DNA of 64,000 nt from Olivibacter domesticus (GTDB taxonomy: Bacteria > Bacteroidota > Bacteroidia > Sphingobacteriales > Sphingobacteriaceae): contig NZ_FOAF01000005.1 of NCBI RefSeq assembly GCF_900109575.1, forward strand, positions 186,001 through 250,000. Direction: 5' to 3'. Under the pieces are notes generated by a model. That model searched no databases, was not told the origin of the DNA, and saw only the letters and a list, made by a program, of their open reading frames with translations. Numbering within the stretch: position 1 is the stretch's first letter; each line of letters begins with the position of its first letter. A program made the position numbers and the translations under genes. Below are positions 29,135 to 36,261 of this stretch, piece after piece.

Positions 29135-30112
29135 CTATGTAAGCAGTTTTTCCATCACCTGCTCAGTATCCTGATAGCGATTTGTGTCATATAACACCCA
29201 TTCGTGATTCCCGCTGATCAGTGCCTTTATTGACTTTACATAACAGCTCAATTCTTTGTTGGTTTCTGCATCAAAAAAAGGCAGCGAACGTTCCAATTCC
29301 AGCAGACGGGCTAAATCCGAATTATGAATAGCTAAGGTTTCTTTCAGTGCTTCCGTTAAAGACAACTGCCGCTCCTTCATCAGTATGATGACCATGTTCT
29401 CCGCACCTTCTTTATCAAGCTCTTTGCCGAAAGAGTGGATATCATTCGCCCAACTAGCGATCCTGATAGCCAATAAAAGCATTTGCCGAATCACATCAAG
29501 TTTATATATATAAAAGGATAAATGAAATTCGGTACCCAAAGACAGCAGGCTACAGCAGACGTTCCCTCCTGAAAAATAAGGTCTCATTTGTATATAGTTT
29601 TCGAGGTTTAAGCCCTTGTTTGCTTTAATCAGTTTGGCCTCCAGTTGCCAAGCTTTAAGCATTTCTAGCATTTCCTTTACAAACCACTGTTGCCATTCAA
29701 CTCCTCTATGCTGCCTGATTCTATACCATAAGTCGCTGAAACATGCTCCAAAACCGTCTTCATCAGTCATTAGTAGCATTTTATTATGAACAAGAATATC
29801 CACCACATGATGCTTCATCCTCTCCAATGTCTTGTTATTCTCCTCCTCGTTTGCTTCAGCAATTAAATCATCCGCAATAAAAAATAGGGTTGTCCAGCAG
29901 CCCACAAGGAAAAACCCCTCTTTATCAGCAAAGGGAAAGGTTCTAGCCGTCCACCAGATATATTTTTCTTCATGATATCGCTGAATAGATTCTTCTGTGG
30001 GAAGTAAGCCGAAGCTGCTAATCCATTTAAATATATCATGATGAGCATCGTGCACATAAGACGAAATACCAAAAGAGAAAGGGTACTGAATTTGTTGAAA
30101 GATCTTTTTCAT
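29135..30112 (-). CDS. Class I terpene synthase (first of two)
   Basis: 325 residues from the Met at 30112 (MKKIFQQIQY); the longer frame to 30163 has no family support. Bacterial class I terpene cyclase motifs are complete: the Asp-rich motif DDLIAE at 81-86, the diphosphate-sensing Arg177 (exactly 46 residues before the NSE triad), the NSE motif NDIHSFGKE at 223-231, and the RY pair at 312-313. Such soluble enzymes ionise a linear C10-C20 diphosphate and cyclise it. Last gene of the operon. The product cannot be predicted by eye; a sesqui- or diterpene is likely given the upstream synthase. Confidence 0.92.
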   Translation of the reverse strand: MKKIFQQIQYPFSFGISSYVHDAHHDIFKWISSFGLLPTEESIQRYHEEKYIWWTARTFPFADKEGFFLVGCWTTLFFIADDLIAEANEEENNKTLERMKHHVVDILVHNKMLLMTDEDGFGACFSDLWYRIRQHRGVEWQQWFVKEMLEMLKAWQLEAKLIKANKGLNLENYIQMRPYFSGGNVCCSLLSLGTEFHLSFYIYKLDVIRQMLLLAIRIASWANDIHSFGKELDKEGAENMVIILMKERQLSLTEALKETLAIHNSDLARLLELERSLPFFDAETNKELSCYVKSIKALISGNHEWVLYDTNRYQDTEQVMEKLLT

Positions 30113-30186
30113 TTTATTTGTTTCCTTTAATGCCAACCACTTTTTAAACTTTACAAACGTCAAAAATTTGCTAAAACATACCCGAT

Positions 30187-31174: not shown

Positions 31175-32086
31175 TCACCATCGTATTACACCAATTAGAA
31201 ATATTAATAAACAAAACAGATAAAGAAAAGACGTATAACTCTTATGATCGTCGCTTGCTGTTCTGAACTTCAAAATTCGATAGGCAATAAACCAATTAAA
31301 TAGTAGGATCAATATAAAAAGTATGTTTAGCACACTACTGCTGATCAGTCGCTCGATTGGGATGTTGGTAGCAAACAGCAGAAGGATGATTAAGGGAGAA
31401 AGCACAAGAAAAAAAAGTGCCAAGACAATTCTAGCATTCCTATCTCCAATAGCTAGGGGTAATGTCTTTCTTCCGACAAGCTGATCACCGGCCTGATCGC
31501 GCATGTCCTGTATATGAAAAGCGAACCCTGACCAAATAGACAAGACAATAGCATATTGATATATTGAAGCATCTAATGGTTGTATGATCTGCCATTGGGA
31601 GCAGAACAATGCAAAAACACCCATGGTCATAAATACCAGATTTTTAGCCCCAAGAAAAATATGCCAACGCATTCGATCGGTGAAGAAAGTTACCAGTTGC
31701 CATAGAACAGCGAAATACAATATATTCAGCTGATGGGCCAATAAGACCAATAATATATTGGCAAAAACCCCTCTGCTATAAGTACCTGGAATGGTAACTA
31801 AGTTTGAAGGAAGAGGGCGCCAAGGCTTATTCCTACGATCTTCTTCTATCGATAAAAGCTGACTGGATAAGCAGACCGTATAAAGGAACAAAAAACTATA
31901 GCTTAAAGAGTACAGAAAATATAGCGGAAGAATACTGAGAGAAGCCCCACTAACTATCCACGAAGCAAACAGCGTGAGCGCACCGGGGACAAAAACTGCA
32001 AACAGATCCGACTTAATAAATAAATACGTCAGATTAAACTCTTTTAACAATTTGGAAGAAATCATGGTGGATGTTTCGTGAGACAT
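31175..32086 (-). CDS. UbiA-superfamily membrane protein (prenyltransferase or membrane terpene cyclase)
   Basis: A 303-residue protein with about eight membrane helices. The second Asp motif is complete: DMRDQAGD (Asp194, Asp197, Asp201). The first is degenerate: SQLLSIEEDRRNKPWRPLPS (75-94) keeps only Asp83 of the usual NDxxDxxxD, though the trailing NKPxRP is kept. UbiA enzymes bind prenyl diphosphate through Mg at these motifs. Altered first motifs occur in UbiA-type terpene cyclases, so transfer to an aromatic or cyclisation are both possible. Placed between ispH and the two terpene synthases in one operon. Confidence 0.8.
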   Translation of the reverse strand: MSHETSTMISSKLLKEFNLTYLFIKSDLFAVFVPGALTLFASWIVSGASLSILPLYFLYSLSYSFLFLYTVCLSSQLLSIEEDRRNKPWRPLPSNLVTIPGTYSRGVFANILLVLLAHQLNILYFAVLWQLVTFFTDRMRWHIFLGAKNLVFMTMGVFALFCSQWQIIQPLDASIYQYAIVLSIWSGFAFHIQDMRDQAGDQLVGRKTLPLAIGDRNARIVLALFFLVLSPLIILLLFATNIPIERLISSSVLNILFILILLFNWFIAYRILKFRTASDDHKSYTSFLYLFCLLIFLIGVIRW

Positions 32087-32104: not shown

Positions 32105-33304
32105 TCAGCTATTCAATGATAATTCATAAAAAGAAAGCAGCCTGCGTATTACATTTTCAATAAGAATATCCGGGCAGGAAGCACCGCTGGTTAAGTGCAA
32201 TGTGAGTGAGTTCGATGGCAAATAAGCATATGAAGTGGTTAGTCGATGGCGATGAATATCCCAATGTTCTATTTCTGTATCCGACAACAAACTGTCGCTA
32301 GAAGAAATAAAATAGGTAGGTAACTTAGCTTCGCATAACTCCACCAAATGAGAGGTGTTTGAACTGTTATATCCACCTACTACAATGGCCAAATCGGCAT
32401 CAAGGGATAGCATATTAATCACCGCCGTTTGATTGTCATGCGTTGCGTAGCAAAGGGTATCCCGCATATTCGCAAAATGCGCTGCTACTTGATCGTCGCT
32501 AAGGTGGTGATGCTCTTGAATCGTCCGTTGCAAAAAATCCGCTATCTGTTGTGTTTCACTGGCAAGCAAAGTTGTTTGATTTACTACACCAATCCGGTTC
32601 AGATCGCGTGTCACATCAAAGCCCTCGGAATACCTCCCTTTAAACAGCGCGTAAAAATCCGTAGGAGGCCTTCGGTTTCCGATAAAATCAGCTAACAATC
32701 TTGCCTCCCTCAAGTCTTTGATAATGATAGAGGCGGCAACACTTTTACTATGAGAGAAAGTCGCCCGAGTTTCTTCATGATTAGGTTTTCCATGTACAAT
32801 AACCGTATAACCCTTATCAGCAATCTGCGAAACCCTGGTCCACACCTTTTCTACAAAAGGGCATTTACTCCGGTAATAAATCTGCTCGATTCCTTTTTCC
32901 TTTAAAATACGCTCTATCTCCAGCGTGGTACCAAAAGCAGGAATGATCACTACATCAGCCGCTGTGATATCCTCCCAGGAGATCAGCTGATTTCCGAGGG
33001 TATCCATAATAAACCGGACACCATTTTCCAAAAGCGACTGGTTTACATATTGGTTGTGGATGATCTCACTTAACAGATAAATCTGTTTATCTGGATTATC
33101 CTGAATAGCCGCATAAGCAGTTTCGATGGCATTCTCTACCCCATAACAGAAGCCGAAGTGACGGGCCAAGTGAATTTTAACCTTCCCGAAATCAAGAATA
33201 GTGGGATTAAAGTCTCTCTTCAGATGGTCGTCCTCTTGTCTGCTTTTTTTGATGGCACTTATTGTCTCACTTTTATATACTGTAGGGATATCAAAGGCTT
33301 TCAT
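32105..33304 (-). CDS. ispH: 4-hydroxy-3-methylbut-2-enyl diphosphate reductase, long form
   Basis: A 399-residue IspH, the last enzyme of the MEP pathway, making IPP and DMAPP with an iron-sulfur cluster. Cluster Cys are C53 (FGFCYGVENAI), C148 (YRSKCPFVEKVW) and C285 (DTLCYATHDNQ). Substrate-contact segments HNQYVNQ, NHEET and GGYNSSNTSHL are present. At about 400 residues it is like the cyanobacterial and plant type; common bacterial forms have about 280-310. Its start overlaps the dxs stop by 14 bases, showing tight coupling. Probably a pathway-dedicated extra copy, which the window alone cannot prove. Confidence 0.93.
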   Translation of the reverse strand: MKAFDIPTVYKSETISAIKKSRQEDDHLKRDFNPTILDFGKVKIHLARHFGFCYGVENAIETAYAAIQDNPDKQIYLLSEIIHNQYVNQSLLENGVRFIMDTLGNQLISWEDITAADVVIIPAFGTTLEIERILKEKGIEQIYYRSKCPFVEKVWTRVSQIADKGYTVIVHGKPNHEETRATFSHSKSVAASIIIKDLREARLLADFIGNRRPPTDFYALFKGRYSEGFDVTRDLNRIGVVNQTTLLASETQQIADFLQRTIQEHHHLSDDQVAAHFANMRDTLCYATHDNQTAVINMLSLDADLAIVVGGYNSSNTSHLVELCEAKLPTYFISSSDSLLSDTEIEHWDIHRHRLTTSYAYLPSNSLTLHLTSGASCPDILIENVIRRLLSFYELSLNS

Positions 33305-35237
33305 GTTTTACCAGTTTTTGTGTTAGTACCAGATCTTGCAGCATTTCTTTTGCCGCTGTTATAATCCCAATTTTGTCAAAACCACATTCCCGATGCAACT
33401 CGTTTACTTTACCATGCTCAACAATACGGTCCGGAACACCCAGTATCCGTACATGCGCATGGTATTGTTTCGCTGCCATAAACTCGAGTACAGCACTACC
33501 TAATCCACCAATAACACAACCATCTTCCACGGTAATAATGTGCTGGTAGTTTTCGAAAACATAATGCAGGAGTTTTTCATCAATCGGCTTTACAAAGCGC
33601 ATGTCAAAAAGGGCCGCGCTAAGCCCTTCCTCCTCTAGTTCACTACAGGCTTCCAAAGCAAAATTGCCGGGATGCCCAAAGGAAAGAATGGCGATATCTC
33701 TCCCCTCCCGAATTTGTCTTCCCGTTCCCACCTTTATTTTCTCAAAAGGTGTTTTCCAGTTCGGCATCACACCCTGCCCTCTGGGATACCTAATCATAAA
33801 GGGTTGCTCCAAACCTGGAAGCTGTGCCGTATACATTAGGTTCCTTAGTTCGGACTCGTTCATCGGCGAGCTAATGACCAAACCAGGCAGGCAGCGCGAG
33901 TAGGCGATATCATAGATACCGTGATGGGTAGCCCCGTCTTCGCCTACCAAACCACCCCTATCCAAGCAAAAAATAACCGGTAGTTGCTGCAACACTACGT
34001 CATGCACCAGCTGATCGTAACCCCGCTGCATAAATGAAGAATAGATATTGCAGAATGCTGTCATACCCTGCGTGGCAAGGCCCGCGGCTAAGGTTACAGC
34101 ATGCTGTTCACAGATCCCTACATCAAATGTGCGCTTAGGCATCTTCTCCATCATAAACTTTAGAGAAGAGCCTGATAACATAGCAGGCGTAATCCCAACG
34201 ATCTTGTCATTCCGTTCTGCCAACTCAATAATACTATGCCCAAAAACATCCTGATATTTGGGAGCTTGCGGCGTATCGTTCGTCGCTTTATGTATCTTGC
34301 CGGTCACTTTATCAAAGAGCCCTGGAAAATGCCATAATGTTTTTTCCTGTTCTGCAGGCGCATAACCCTTACCCTTGGTGGTCACCACATGCAATAATTT
34401 AGGACCAGGAATATTGCGCATATCCCGTAATGTTTCGGCCAAGTTCAATACATCATGCCCATCCACCGGACCAAAATAGCGTAAATTCAATGCTTCAAAA
34501 AAGTTCGCATGTTCTGAGAACATGCTTTTAATGCCCGACTTAGTTCTGTGCAGTAATTCTTTAGAACGCTCGCCAACCAGTGGTAATTTATGAATCGTTT
34601 TTCCTACGTTTTTACGAAGGCTATTATACGTTTTCGACAGCGCTAAGTGCGTTAAATATTCTTTTAATGCCCCTACATTCTGATCAATTGACATGCAATT
34701 ATCATTGAGAATGACGATCAGATTGGTATCCGTTGCACCGGCATGATTCAGTGCTTCAAAAGCCATCCCTGCAGTCATCGCACCATCACCGATTACGGCT
34801 ATATGCTGCTTATCATGCTCACCCCTATGTTTAGCAGCAATGGCCATTCCCAATGCTGCAGAGATCGAAGTAGAAGAGTGGCCGGTACCGAAAGCATCAT
34901 ATTCGCTTTCGCTTCGACGAGGAAAACCACTAATCCCTTTATATTTTCTGTTGCTAGAGAAAAAATCCCGTCTTCCGGTCAATATCTTATGCCCATAGGC
35001 CTGGTGTCCTACATCCCAAACCAATTGGTCGTAAGGCGTGTTCATCACATAATGCAAAGCAGCTGTCAGCTCCACCGTCCCCAAGCTCGCCCCAAAATGG
35101 CCGCCATGCTGGCTGACGGTCTCTACTAGAAAGGCCCTCAGTTCATCGCATAATTGCGGTAATTGAGCAGGTTTCAGCTTCTTTAGATCGAGGGGATTAT
35201 CTATCTGATCAAGTAGGGATAATTTAGTTTTTCTCAT
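33291..35237 (-). CDS. dxs: 1-deoxy-D-xylulose-5-phosphate synthase
   Basis: 648 residues from the Met at 35237 (MRKTKLSLLDQIDNP); the frame stays open further upstream but those codons overlap little-protein-like sequence. The thiamine-diphosphate enzyme joins pyruvate and glyceraldehyde 3-phosphate, the committed step of the MEP pathway. Motifs: HYVMNTPYDQLVWDVGHQAY, GDGAMTAGMAFEALNHAG, LNDNCMSIDQNVGAL, and the catalytic FDVGICEQHAVTLAAGLA. Length is normal. It lies between the prenyl synthase and ispH. Confidence 0.96.
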   Translation of the reverse strand: MRKTKLSLLDQIDNPLDLKKLKPAQLPQLCDELRAFLVETVSQHGGHFGASLGTVELTAALHYVMNTPYDQLVWDVGHQAYGHKILTGRRDFFSSNRKYKGISGFPRRSESEYDAFGTGHSSTSISAALGMAIAAKHRGEHDKQHIAVIGDGAMTAGMAFEALNHAGATDTNLIVILNDNCMSIDQNVGALKEYLTHLALSKTYNSLRKNVGKTIHKLPLVGERSKELLHRTKSGIKSMFSEHANFFEALNLRYFGPVDGHDVLNLAETLRDMRNIPGPKLLHVVTTKGKGYAPAEQEKTLWHFPGLFDKVTGKIHKATNDTPQAPKYQDVFGHSIIELAERNDKIVGITPAMLSGSSLKFMMEKMPKRTFDVGICEQHAVTLAAGLATQGMTAFCNIYSSFMQRGYDQLVHDVVLQQLPVIFCLDRGGLVGEDGATHHGIYDIAYSRCLPGLVISSPMNESELRNLMYTAQLPGLEQPFMIRYPRGQGVMPNWKTPFEKIKVGTGRQIREGRDIAILSFGHPGNFALEACSELEEEGLSAALFDMRFVKPIDEKLLHYVFENYQHIITVEDGCVIGGLGSAVLEFMAAKQYHAHVRILGVPDRIVEHGKVNELHRECGFDKIGIITAAKEMLQDLVLTQKLVKHESL

Positions 35238-35289
35238 GGCAGAAAATTGTTTAACGGTAAATATGAAAAACAGGGGGTTGGTGTCTTTT

Positions 35290-36261
35290 TTAAGACTGGC
35301 GTACCAATAGTGAGCTGGCCAGTTCCAGCAGTTTCTCCTTTTTGAAAACGGGCACATCTATCTCTTCCAATTTATCAAAGGCGATAGCTGTGTAAGACCT
35401 AATCGCTTCTACGGCCCACAAATCCACTTCAAGTATTTTATAACAGTCCATAACAGCTCGGATTTTATCTTCGCCCTTACGTTGGAAGGCCTCTTTTAGT
35501 CTTATTAGTTGTTCTGACGTTGCTTGTTCAAATGCCTTGACCAACAATGCTGTTTTTTTGTTTTCCAGAATATCGCCTCCTACTTGTTTACCGGTATGTG
35601 CGCTAGCGCCAAAAGTATCCAAATAATCATCTTGTATCTGAAAGGCGATTCCTATGTTCTTAGCAAATTCGTATAGACCGACTTGCTGCCCTTCATCTGC
35701 ACCGCCCATCATTGCGCCGCACTGAGCAGCGCCGCCTAATAGCACAGACGTTTTCAGTGTAATCATTTCAAGATAATCGGCATAATTTACCGTTTCCATT
35801 TCCATACCCTCCATATCAATGTCCAACTGCTGCCCTTCACATACTAGCCGTGCCGTATCCGCAAACAGCTCGATGATTTGCGTTCGGTAGATACTTTCAA
35901 TTTGATTGAGTAATGCATAACATTGGATGAGCAAGGTGTCTCCAGCAAGTATAGCCGTACCTTCATTGTATTTTATATGTAAGGTTGGCCGTCCTCTACG
36001 TAAGGGAGAACGGTCCATAATATCGTCGTGAATGAGCGTAAAATTGTGAAAGAGATCAAAAGCATAAGCAACAATATATGTATCAGCATGTATGTTATCA
36101 AATAACTCGTTCACCATCAAACACATTGCCGGTCGGACTCTTTTGCCCGGAAGGTCCAAAAAATAATTAATCGACCCATATAGATTTTTGGGGGAAGTCG
36201 GAAACACAAACGTATCTCGCTGTTTCTGGTAAAGCTTGCAGATTTCTGAAAAGGAATGCAT
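35290..36261 (-). CDS. Isoprenyl diphosphate synthase, probable GGPP or FPP synthase
   Basis: A 323-residue trans-prenyl elongase. First Asp-rich motif DDIMD (79-83) with RRGRPT; second motif DDYLD (211-215). The residue five before the first motif is Phe74, and the motif has no two-residue insertion. In the usual scheme an aromatic at -5 without insertion marks archaeal-type GGPP synthases, so C20 is the better guess, with C15 possible. First gene of the terpene operon, 52 bases before the dxs start. Confidence 0.9.
   Translation of the reverse strand: MHSFSEICKLYQKQRDTFVFPTSPKNLYGSINYFLDLPGKRVRPAMCLMVNELFDNIHADTYIVAYAFDLFHNFTLIHDDIMDRSPLRRGRPTLHIKYNEGTAILAGDTLLIQCYALLNQIESIYRTQIIELFADTARLVCEGQQLDIDMEGMEMETVNYADYLEMITLKTSVLLGGAAQCGAMMGGADEGQQVGLYEFAKNIGIAFQIQDDYLDTFGASAHTGKQVGGDILENKKTALLVKAFEQATSEQLIRLKEAFQRKGEDKIRAVMDCYKILEVDLWAVEAIRSYTAIAFDKLEEIDVPVFKKEKLLELASSLLVRQS

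Follow-up and report, generated by a model that had tools for sequence, protein, structure and literature searches.

The window, a stretch of 64,000 nucleotides from Olivibacter domesticus, carries six tightly spaced minus-strand genes, of which the fourth, placed between IspH and two terpene synthases, encodes a UbiA-superfamily protein. The features of this operon, from its first gene onwards and with the two metal-binding motifs of the UbiA protein listed below it, are as follows (window coordinates):

35290..36261, minus strand: short-chain polyprenyl diphosphate synthase, operon gene 1, with DDIMD and DDYLD (Pfam, 2.2e-70)
33291..35357, minus strand: 1-deoxy-D-xylulose-5-phosphate synthase, DXS (TIGR00204, 5.6e-232)
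32105..33304, minus strand: IspH (LytB), 4-hydroxy-3-methylbut-2-enyl diphosphate reductase (PRK13371, 460.5 bits, cut-off 440)
31175..32086, minus strand: UbiA-superfamily membrane protein of 303 aa, candidate membrane-bound terpene cyclase (Pfam, AlphaFold2, VIA-align)
31838..31864, minus strand: motif I, residues 75-83, SQLLSIEED; family form NQxx[G/S]xxED
31484..31510, minus strand: motif II, residues 193-201, QDMRDQAGD (QDxxDxxxD; signature from PMC9835599)
30187..31128, minus strand: class I terpene synthase 1, with NDFFSYEKE, a C-terminal RY, and DDYYG replacing DDxxD (PF19086, 1.5e-35)
29135..30163, minus strand: class I terpene synthase 2, with DDLIAE, NDIHSFGKE and RY, TTG start as listed (PF19086, 1.3e-35)

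An earlier note had placed the UbiA gene inside a terpene operon beside two soluble cyclases, and the tight minus-strand arrangement and the PF19086 matches of both terpene synthases, which keep NDxxSxxxE and RY, bear this out. As listed, genes 1 and 2 share 68 nt and genes 2 and 3 share 14 nt, and gaps of 18, 46 and 23 nt separate the remaining pairs; the longer overlap, between the prenyl synthase and DXS, probably reflects a DXS start listed too far upstream, with the true start lying downstream. This DXS is the second full copy in the genome (the other is on contig 3, at G000:C3:454682), which suggests a dedicated precursor supply. The operon thus provides both C5 units and an allylic diphosphate alongside two soluble cyclases, and no acceptor-making gene was found among its genes in the window. 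The next genes upstream of the operon encode a glycoside hydrolase of the GH5 type and a SusC/SusD pair, a gene content in keeping with Bacteroidota.

Only the minus strand has an open frame at 31175-32086; the UbiA ORF there starts with ATG at 32086, and its product belongs to the UbiA superfamily by its match to Pfam UbiA PF01040 (3.6e-15, 56.4 bits, cut-off 34.2). The structure was predicted with high confidence (AlphaFold2 with 12 aligned sequences, pLDDT 93.2, pTM 0.89), and solved UbiA structures ranked top for the model in Foldseek and VIA-align, the best-scoring ones reaching Z 17-22.5. Foremost among these in VIA-align was the DGGGP synthase 6m31 (Z 22.5 over 274 residues, 16% identity), and 4tq4 (AfUbiA) scored Z 20.7; the UbiA structures stand clear of the helical background because soluble prenyl synthases reach just Z about 15 against the same model. 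A PDB sequence search with the single window protein as query gave no match. None of the NCBIfam prenyltransferase models reached its cut-off for the family members tested, and the window protein scored 28-42 bits against the DGGGP synthase-like and geranylgeranyl transferase models (cut-offs 269-353), well outside these equivalogs.

The first metal motif had been described in the earlier note as broken, with S75, Q76, S79 and D83 where canonical enzymes have N, D, D and D, and the second as complete. The letters themselves are confirmed: motif I reads C-L-S-S75-Q76-L-L-S79-I-E-E-D83-R-R-N-K-P-W-R-P, and motif II reads I-Q193-D194-M-R-D197-Q-A-G-D201, with Q193, D194, D197 and D201 all in place. 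However, "broken" is the wrong word for motif I, since three of its four letters are normal for the protein's family (33 members) and only N75S is special. In a comparison of these 33 members with other UbiA proteins, 16 of which have a letter at positions 75/76, Q76 was present in every member and in none of the 16 others, which have D or N there in 13 cases and never Q. Residue 79 is S in 17 members and G in 16, while Q76, E82, D83, N86, K87, R90, D194, R196, D197, D201 and R206 never vary across the family; the other UbiA proteins compared lack R206 altogether, E82 is found in a single one of them, and R196 in three. All residues that define the Chitinophaga-type UbiA clade are present in the window protein. 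Because Q76 and D83 are each found in 33/33 members and residue 79 alternates between S and G, the departure in motif I is not random damage; as judged from the aligned sequences, it is mostly a family trait, with N75S as the sole exception. S75 is private to the window protein: the remaining 32 members have N here, as do 16/16 of the other UbiA proteins with a residue at this position. The S75 codon is AGT, which a single base change would turn into AAT (Asn). Canonical NDxxDxxxD, by which motif I of aromatic prenyltransferases is recognized, is missing from all 33 members.

Scanning the genome collection with the window protein alone gave no match, and relatives were found with a profile from an alignment of the window protein and two plasmid relatives. 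In species genomes, this profile detected close relatives in Chitinophaga (35-43% identity) and more weakly matching proteins in Nocardia, Plesiocystis, Spirulina, Brevibacterium and Rhodococcus; the family is present in 27 of 79 Chitinophaga species and is sporadic elsewhere. Phylum-wide and nearby-genus searches returned only remote UbiA proteins, with none in four congeners, so that the family is not fixed in the lineage of the window. Two overlapping sets of Actinomycetes genomes (296 and 394) yielded a single clear member, in the Nocardia that served as centre; of the other matches that were read, none carried the family motifs. Latescibacterota and Gemmatimonadota loci L057-L061 were left out of the family, as they carry NDLCGITED and KDLED, and L057, the one tested, scores with DGGGP synthases.

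Neighbouring genes of the relatives outside and within Chitinophaga include further parts of terpene pathways. The Streptomyces plasmid relative adjoins a prenyl diphosphate synthase, and such synthases lie near relatives in Streptomyces, Rhodococcus, two Nocardia and Brevibacterium; a P450 stands beside the relatives at the Nocardia and Plesiocystis loci examined, a flavin monooxygenase lies near those of Rhodococcus and of the Brevibacterium/"Bacillus" cassette, and class I terpene synthases lie near those of C. barathri and C. tropicalis. No acceptor-pathway genes were seen among the annotated neighbours of the relatives. The cassette is found on plasmid CP123774.1, which is labelled Bacillus subtilis DK01 (source noted as a mixed culture) and encodes a UbiA protein identical to that of Brevibacterium oceani (L045/L055), with a prenyl synthase, an idi-annotated gene and the flavin monooxygenase beside it; a mislabelled species or a recent move of the cassette could explain this.

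The phylogeny comprised 51 rows, 33 of them from the family, with E. coli UbiA, MenA, CyoE, ApUbiA, UBIAD1, ChlG and DGGGP synthases as outgroups. All 33 family rows fell on one side of a 90/93 branch (94% of bootstrap trees) with every outgroup beyond it, a branch that is not starred and is to be read with the caution that several outgroup rows are long or partial and four PDB rows are fragments. The window protein grouped with 24 Chitinophaga rows in a 99/99 clade, apart from E. coli UbiA, MenA, ApUbiA and UBIAD1 and outside the clade of the M. jannaschii DGGGP synthase. Placement in an aromatic prenyltransferase clade with the same motif, named beforehand as the outcome that would speak against a cyclase, was therefore not seen, as the 90/93 branch separates the two and motif I differs.

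For fungal UbiA-type terpene synthases, the signatures NxxxG/AxxxD (motif I) and QDxxDxxxD (motif II) have been published, and in Tps1A the mutants D100A in motif I and D215A, D218A and D222A in motif II abolish product (PMC9835599). Motif II of the window protein matches its signature exactly, whereas motif I departs at S75 and S79 and keeps the final D83. By motif I, the protein thus falls outside formal membership of the UbiA-type terpene synthases as sequences define it; on present evidence, and judged by the published motifs, it would work like this group. Compared in the same way with the fungal Tps1A/Tps2A, Fma-TC and EriG, it shares the UbiA superfamily, the QDxxDxxxD of motif II and a motif I in which positions two and three are not the canonical Asp while the last Asp is kept (PMC9835599), but it has SxxxSxxxD instead of NxxxG/AxxxD, is bacterial, and is encoded in an operon that includes its own DXS and IspH. 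Bacterial UbiA-type cyclases are represented by StlTC (S. lydicus, lydicene), StsC (S. somaliensis, somaliensenes) and the UbiA-type diterpene synthase of the platensimycin/platencin pathways (PMC10301674, PMC9835599), which, likened to the window protein by description only, are bacterial membrane cyclases of the kind proposed here; they make di- or sesterterpenes and are actinobacterial.

Gene neighbourhoods in Chitinophaga provided a further line of evidence. There, 22 of the 24 UbiA loci have a membrane hybrid histidine kinase gene next to UbiA, and the other neighbours of UbiA vary. Some of the loci are near-copies, so that independent events are fewer than loci. The kinase is about 590 aa long, with HisKA, HATPase and receiver domains and an N-terminal part in which 4-5 segments exceed a simple hydropathy threshold. 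UbiA lies directly downstream of it on the same strand at 21 of the 24 loci, including L122, whose kinase gene has a split frame and is separated from UbiA by a small antisense ORF; at L118 the kinase is downstream of UbiA and convergent, and at two loci no kinase stands beside UbiA. Based on a profile of the N-terminal sensor, the kinase family is present in all 79 Chitinophaga genomes, with 1-12 copies each. We sampled copies without UbiA at 40 loci of high scorers (42 kinases) and, as a check for bias, took the 20 lowest-scoring among the matches listed (kinase loci in Chitinophaga: L118-L137, L046-L048, L174-L213 and L250-L269). A class I terpene synthase is next downstream and convergent in 28/42 of the former and next downstream, in either orientation, in 19/20 of the latter; pooled, 47 of the 62 UbiA-free kinase copies have such a synthase beside them. 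By comparison, of the other ORFs of at least 300 aa at these loci, whose selection enriches them for terpene synthases, 17/306 lie next to one, and with 1-17 terpene synthases per Chitinophaga genome, random adjacency should be below 1%.

In the kinase tree, copies linked to UbiA are scattered among those linked to a terpene synthase, and the starred branches require the label to change at least 5-6 times. UbiA therefore seems to have replaced a terpene synthase, or a terpene synthase UbiA, on more than one occasion. UbiA seems to fill the terpene-synthase slot beside the kinase, an adjacency that is an association and not proof of function. Chitinophaga class I terpene synthases (e.g., 18-hydroxydolabella-3,7-diene synthase, PMC5588592) resemble UbiA in proposed chemistry and in this kinase-side slot, but are soluble and unrelated in sequence. 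The window operon contains no membrane hybrid histidine kinase, and the sensor-profile search of the window genome found no match to the kinase family; the slot argument accordingly applies to the relatives at 34-43% identity.

We conclude that the window protein is probably an integral-membrane UbiA-superfamily terpene cyclase rather than an aromatic prenyltransferase, a reading supported by the motif II signature, by the separation in the tree and by the relatives' occupation of a slot of class I terpene synthases. The third, membrane-bound cyclase proposed in the earlier note stands on these three points, while the match of motif I to known cyclases is partial. Against it, two soluble cyclases are already present in the operon, and both structural similarity and NCBIfam scores point to DGGGP synthase and related prenyltransferases as the protein's nearest described relatives. 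Under the cyclase reading, the prenyl diphosphate synthase of the operon would provide the enzyme in the membrane with its substrate (FPP, GGPP or GFPP), and Mg2+ held by D194/D197/D201 and by D83 (with E82) would ionise it. The resulting cation would cyclise in the membrane cavity instead of attacking an aromatic ring, and would be quenched by proton loss or trapped by water. The absence of Asp at 76 and 79 would here be a family trait, and the private N75S may be taken as tolerated because the metals would be carried by D83 and motif II.

It is unlikely that the protein is instead a prenyltransferase that transfers a linear or cyclised terpenyl group onto an acceptor made elsewhere (a quinol, sugar, lipid or soluble-cyclase product), although its superfamily, its nearest solved fold and its top NCBIfam scores, to DGGGP synthase-like prenyltransferases and all below cut-off, are consistent with such a role. 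The M. jannaschii DGGGP synthase (PDB 6m31/7bpu), while closest in fold, has its own NDxxDxxxD, sits in a separate clade of the tree and transfers to a glycerol phosphate lipid, whereas the canonical motif is absent from 33/33 members of the family, which forms a distinct clade. Acceptor-biosynthesis genes are likewise absent from both the window operon and the annotated neighbours of the relatives. Moreover, housekeeping prenylations have other candidates, as four more UbiA-like genes are encoded elsewhere in the genome, namely MqnP/UbiA-like, CyoE, EboC and one weak match.

Still less probable is that this protein, with its N75S, is no longer an active cyclase or retains some other role, such as partner of the soluble cyclases, while its relatives are active. 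S75 is unique among the 33 homologues at a position held by N in all other UbiA proteins with a letter there, but the frame is intact and tightly packed within the operon, all other family-invariant residues are kept, and the structure model is confident over its whole length. Least probable of all is that UbiA in Chitinophaga is a component of the kinase pathway (e.g., making or presenting a lipid ligand) beside which terpene synthases lie for some other reason, as the kinase in 22/24 otherwise variable neighbourhoods might suggest, given that the window and non-Chitinophaga members sit with terpene-pathway genes with no such kinase seen adjoining, and that most other copies of this kinase family have a class I terpene synthase as their neighbour.

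If the cyclase reading is true, Bacteroidota have an uncharacterised branch of membrane terpene cyclases in which motif I is cut to one canonical Asp, which would reveal which motif I ligands are truly needed for the reaction. Possibly, the kinase-adjoining loci are terpene-sensing modules. We see about an even chance that, throughout Chitinophaga, class I synthases and UbiA-type cyclases are paired with kinases of one family in self-contained modules, in which the kinase senses or is regulated by its neighbour's terpene, and that the window protein represents the UbiA branch outside such a module, in a full precursor-to-terpene operon. The pairing of terpene synthase and histidine kinase was not found in the open-access literature searched, though it may still be known, and the papers on bacterial terpene synthases that it covered, some of them on Chitinophagaceae enzymes, do not mention kinases. 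From the kinase link, particular membrane kinases would be expected to have particular terpenes as ligands, and the link makes the purpose of bacterial terpenes testable, with dozens of natural enzyme-kinase pairs.

Elsewhere in the window genome, four class I terpene synthases lie outside the window (G000:C10:1561620, C10:2141417, C10:1440469 and C12:842786), none of them adjoining the kinase family. The fifth UbiA-like protein of the genome, with the window protein counted in (L005, G000:C10:654442-654999, 312 aa), is very divergent, with no NCBIfam match and a score below the Pfam cut-off. Among the Chitinophaga kinases, one clade (L195-L198, L202, L203 and L208) has no adjoining terpene synthase; its kinases precede a conserved, apparently secreted protein of ~440-510 aa that looks by eye like a sugar dehydrogenase.
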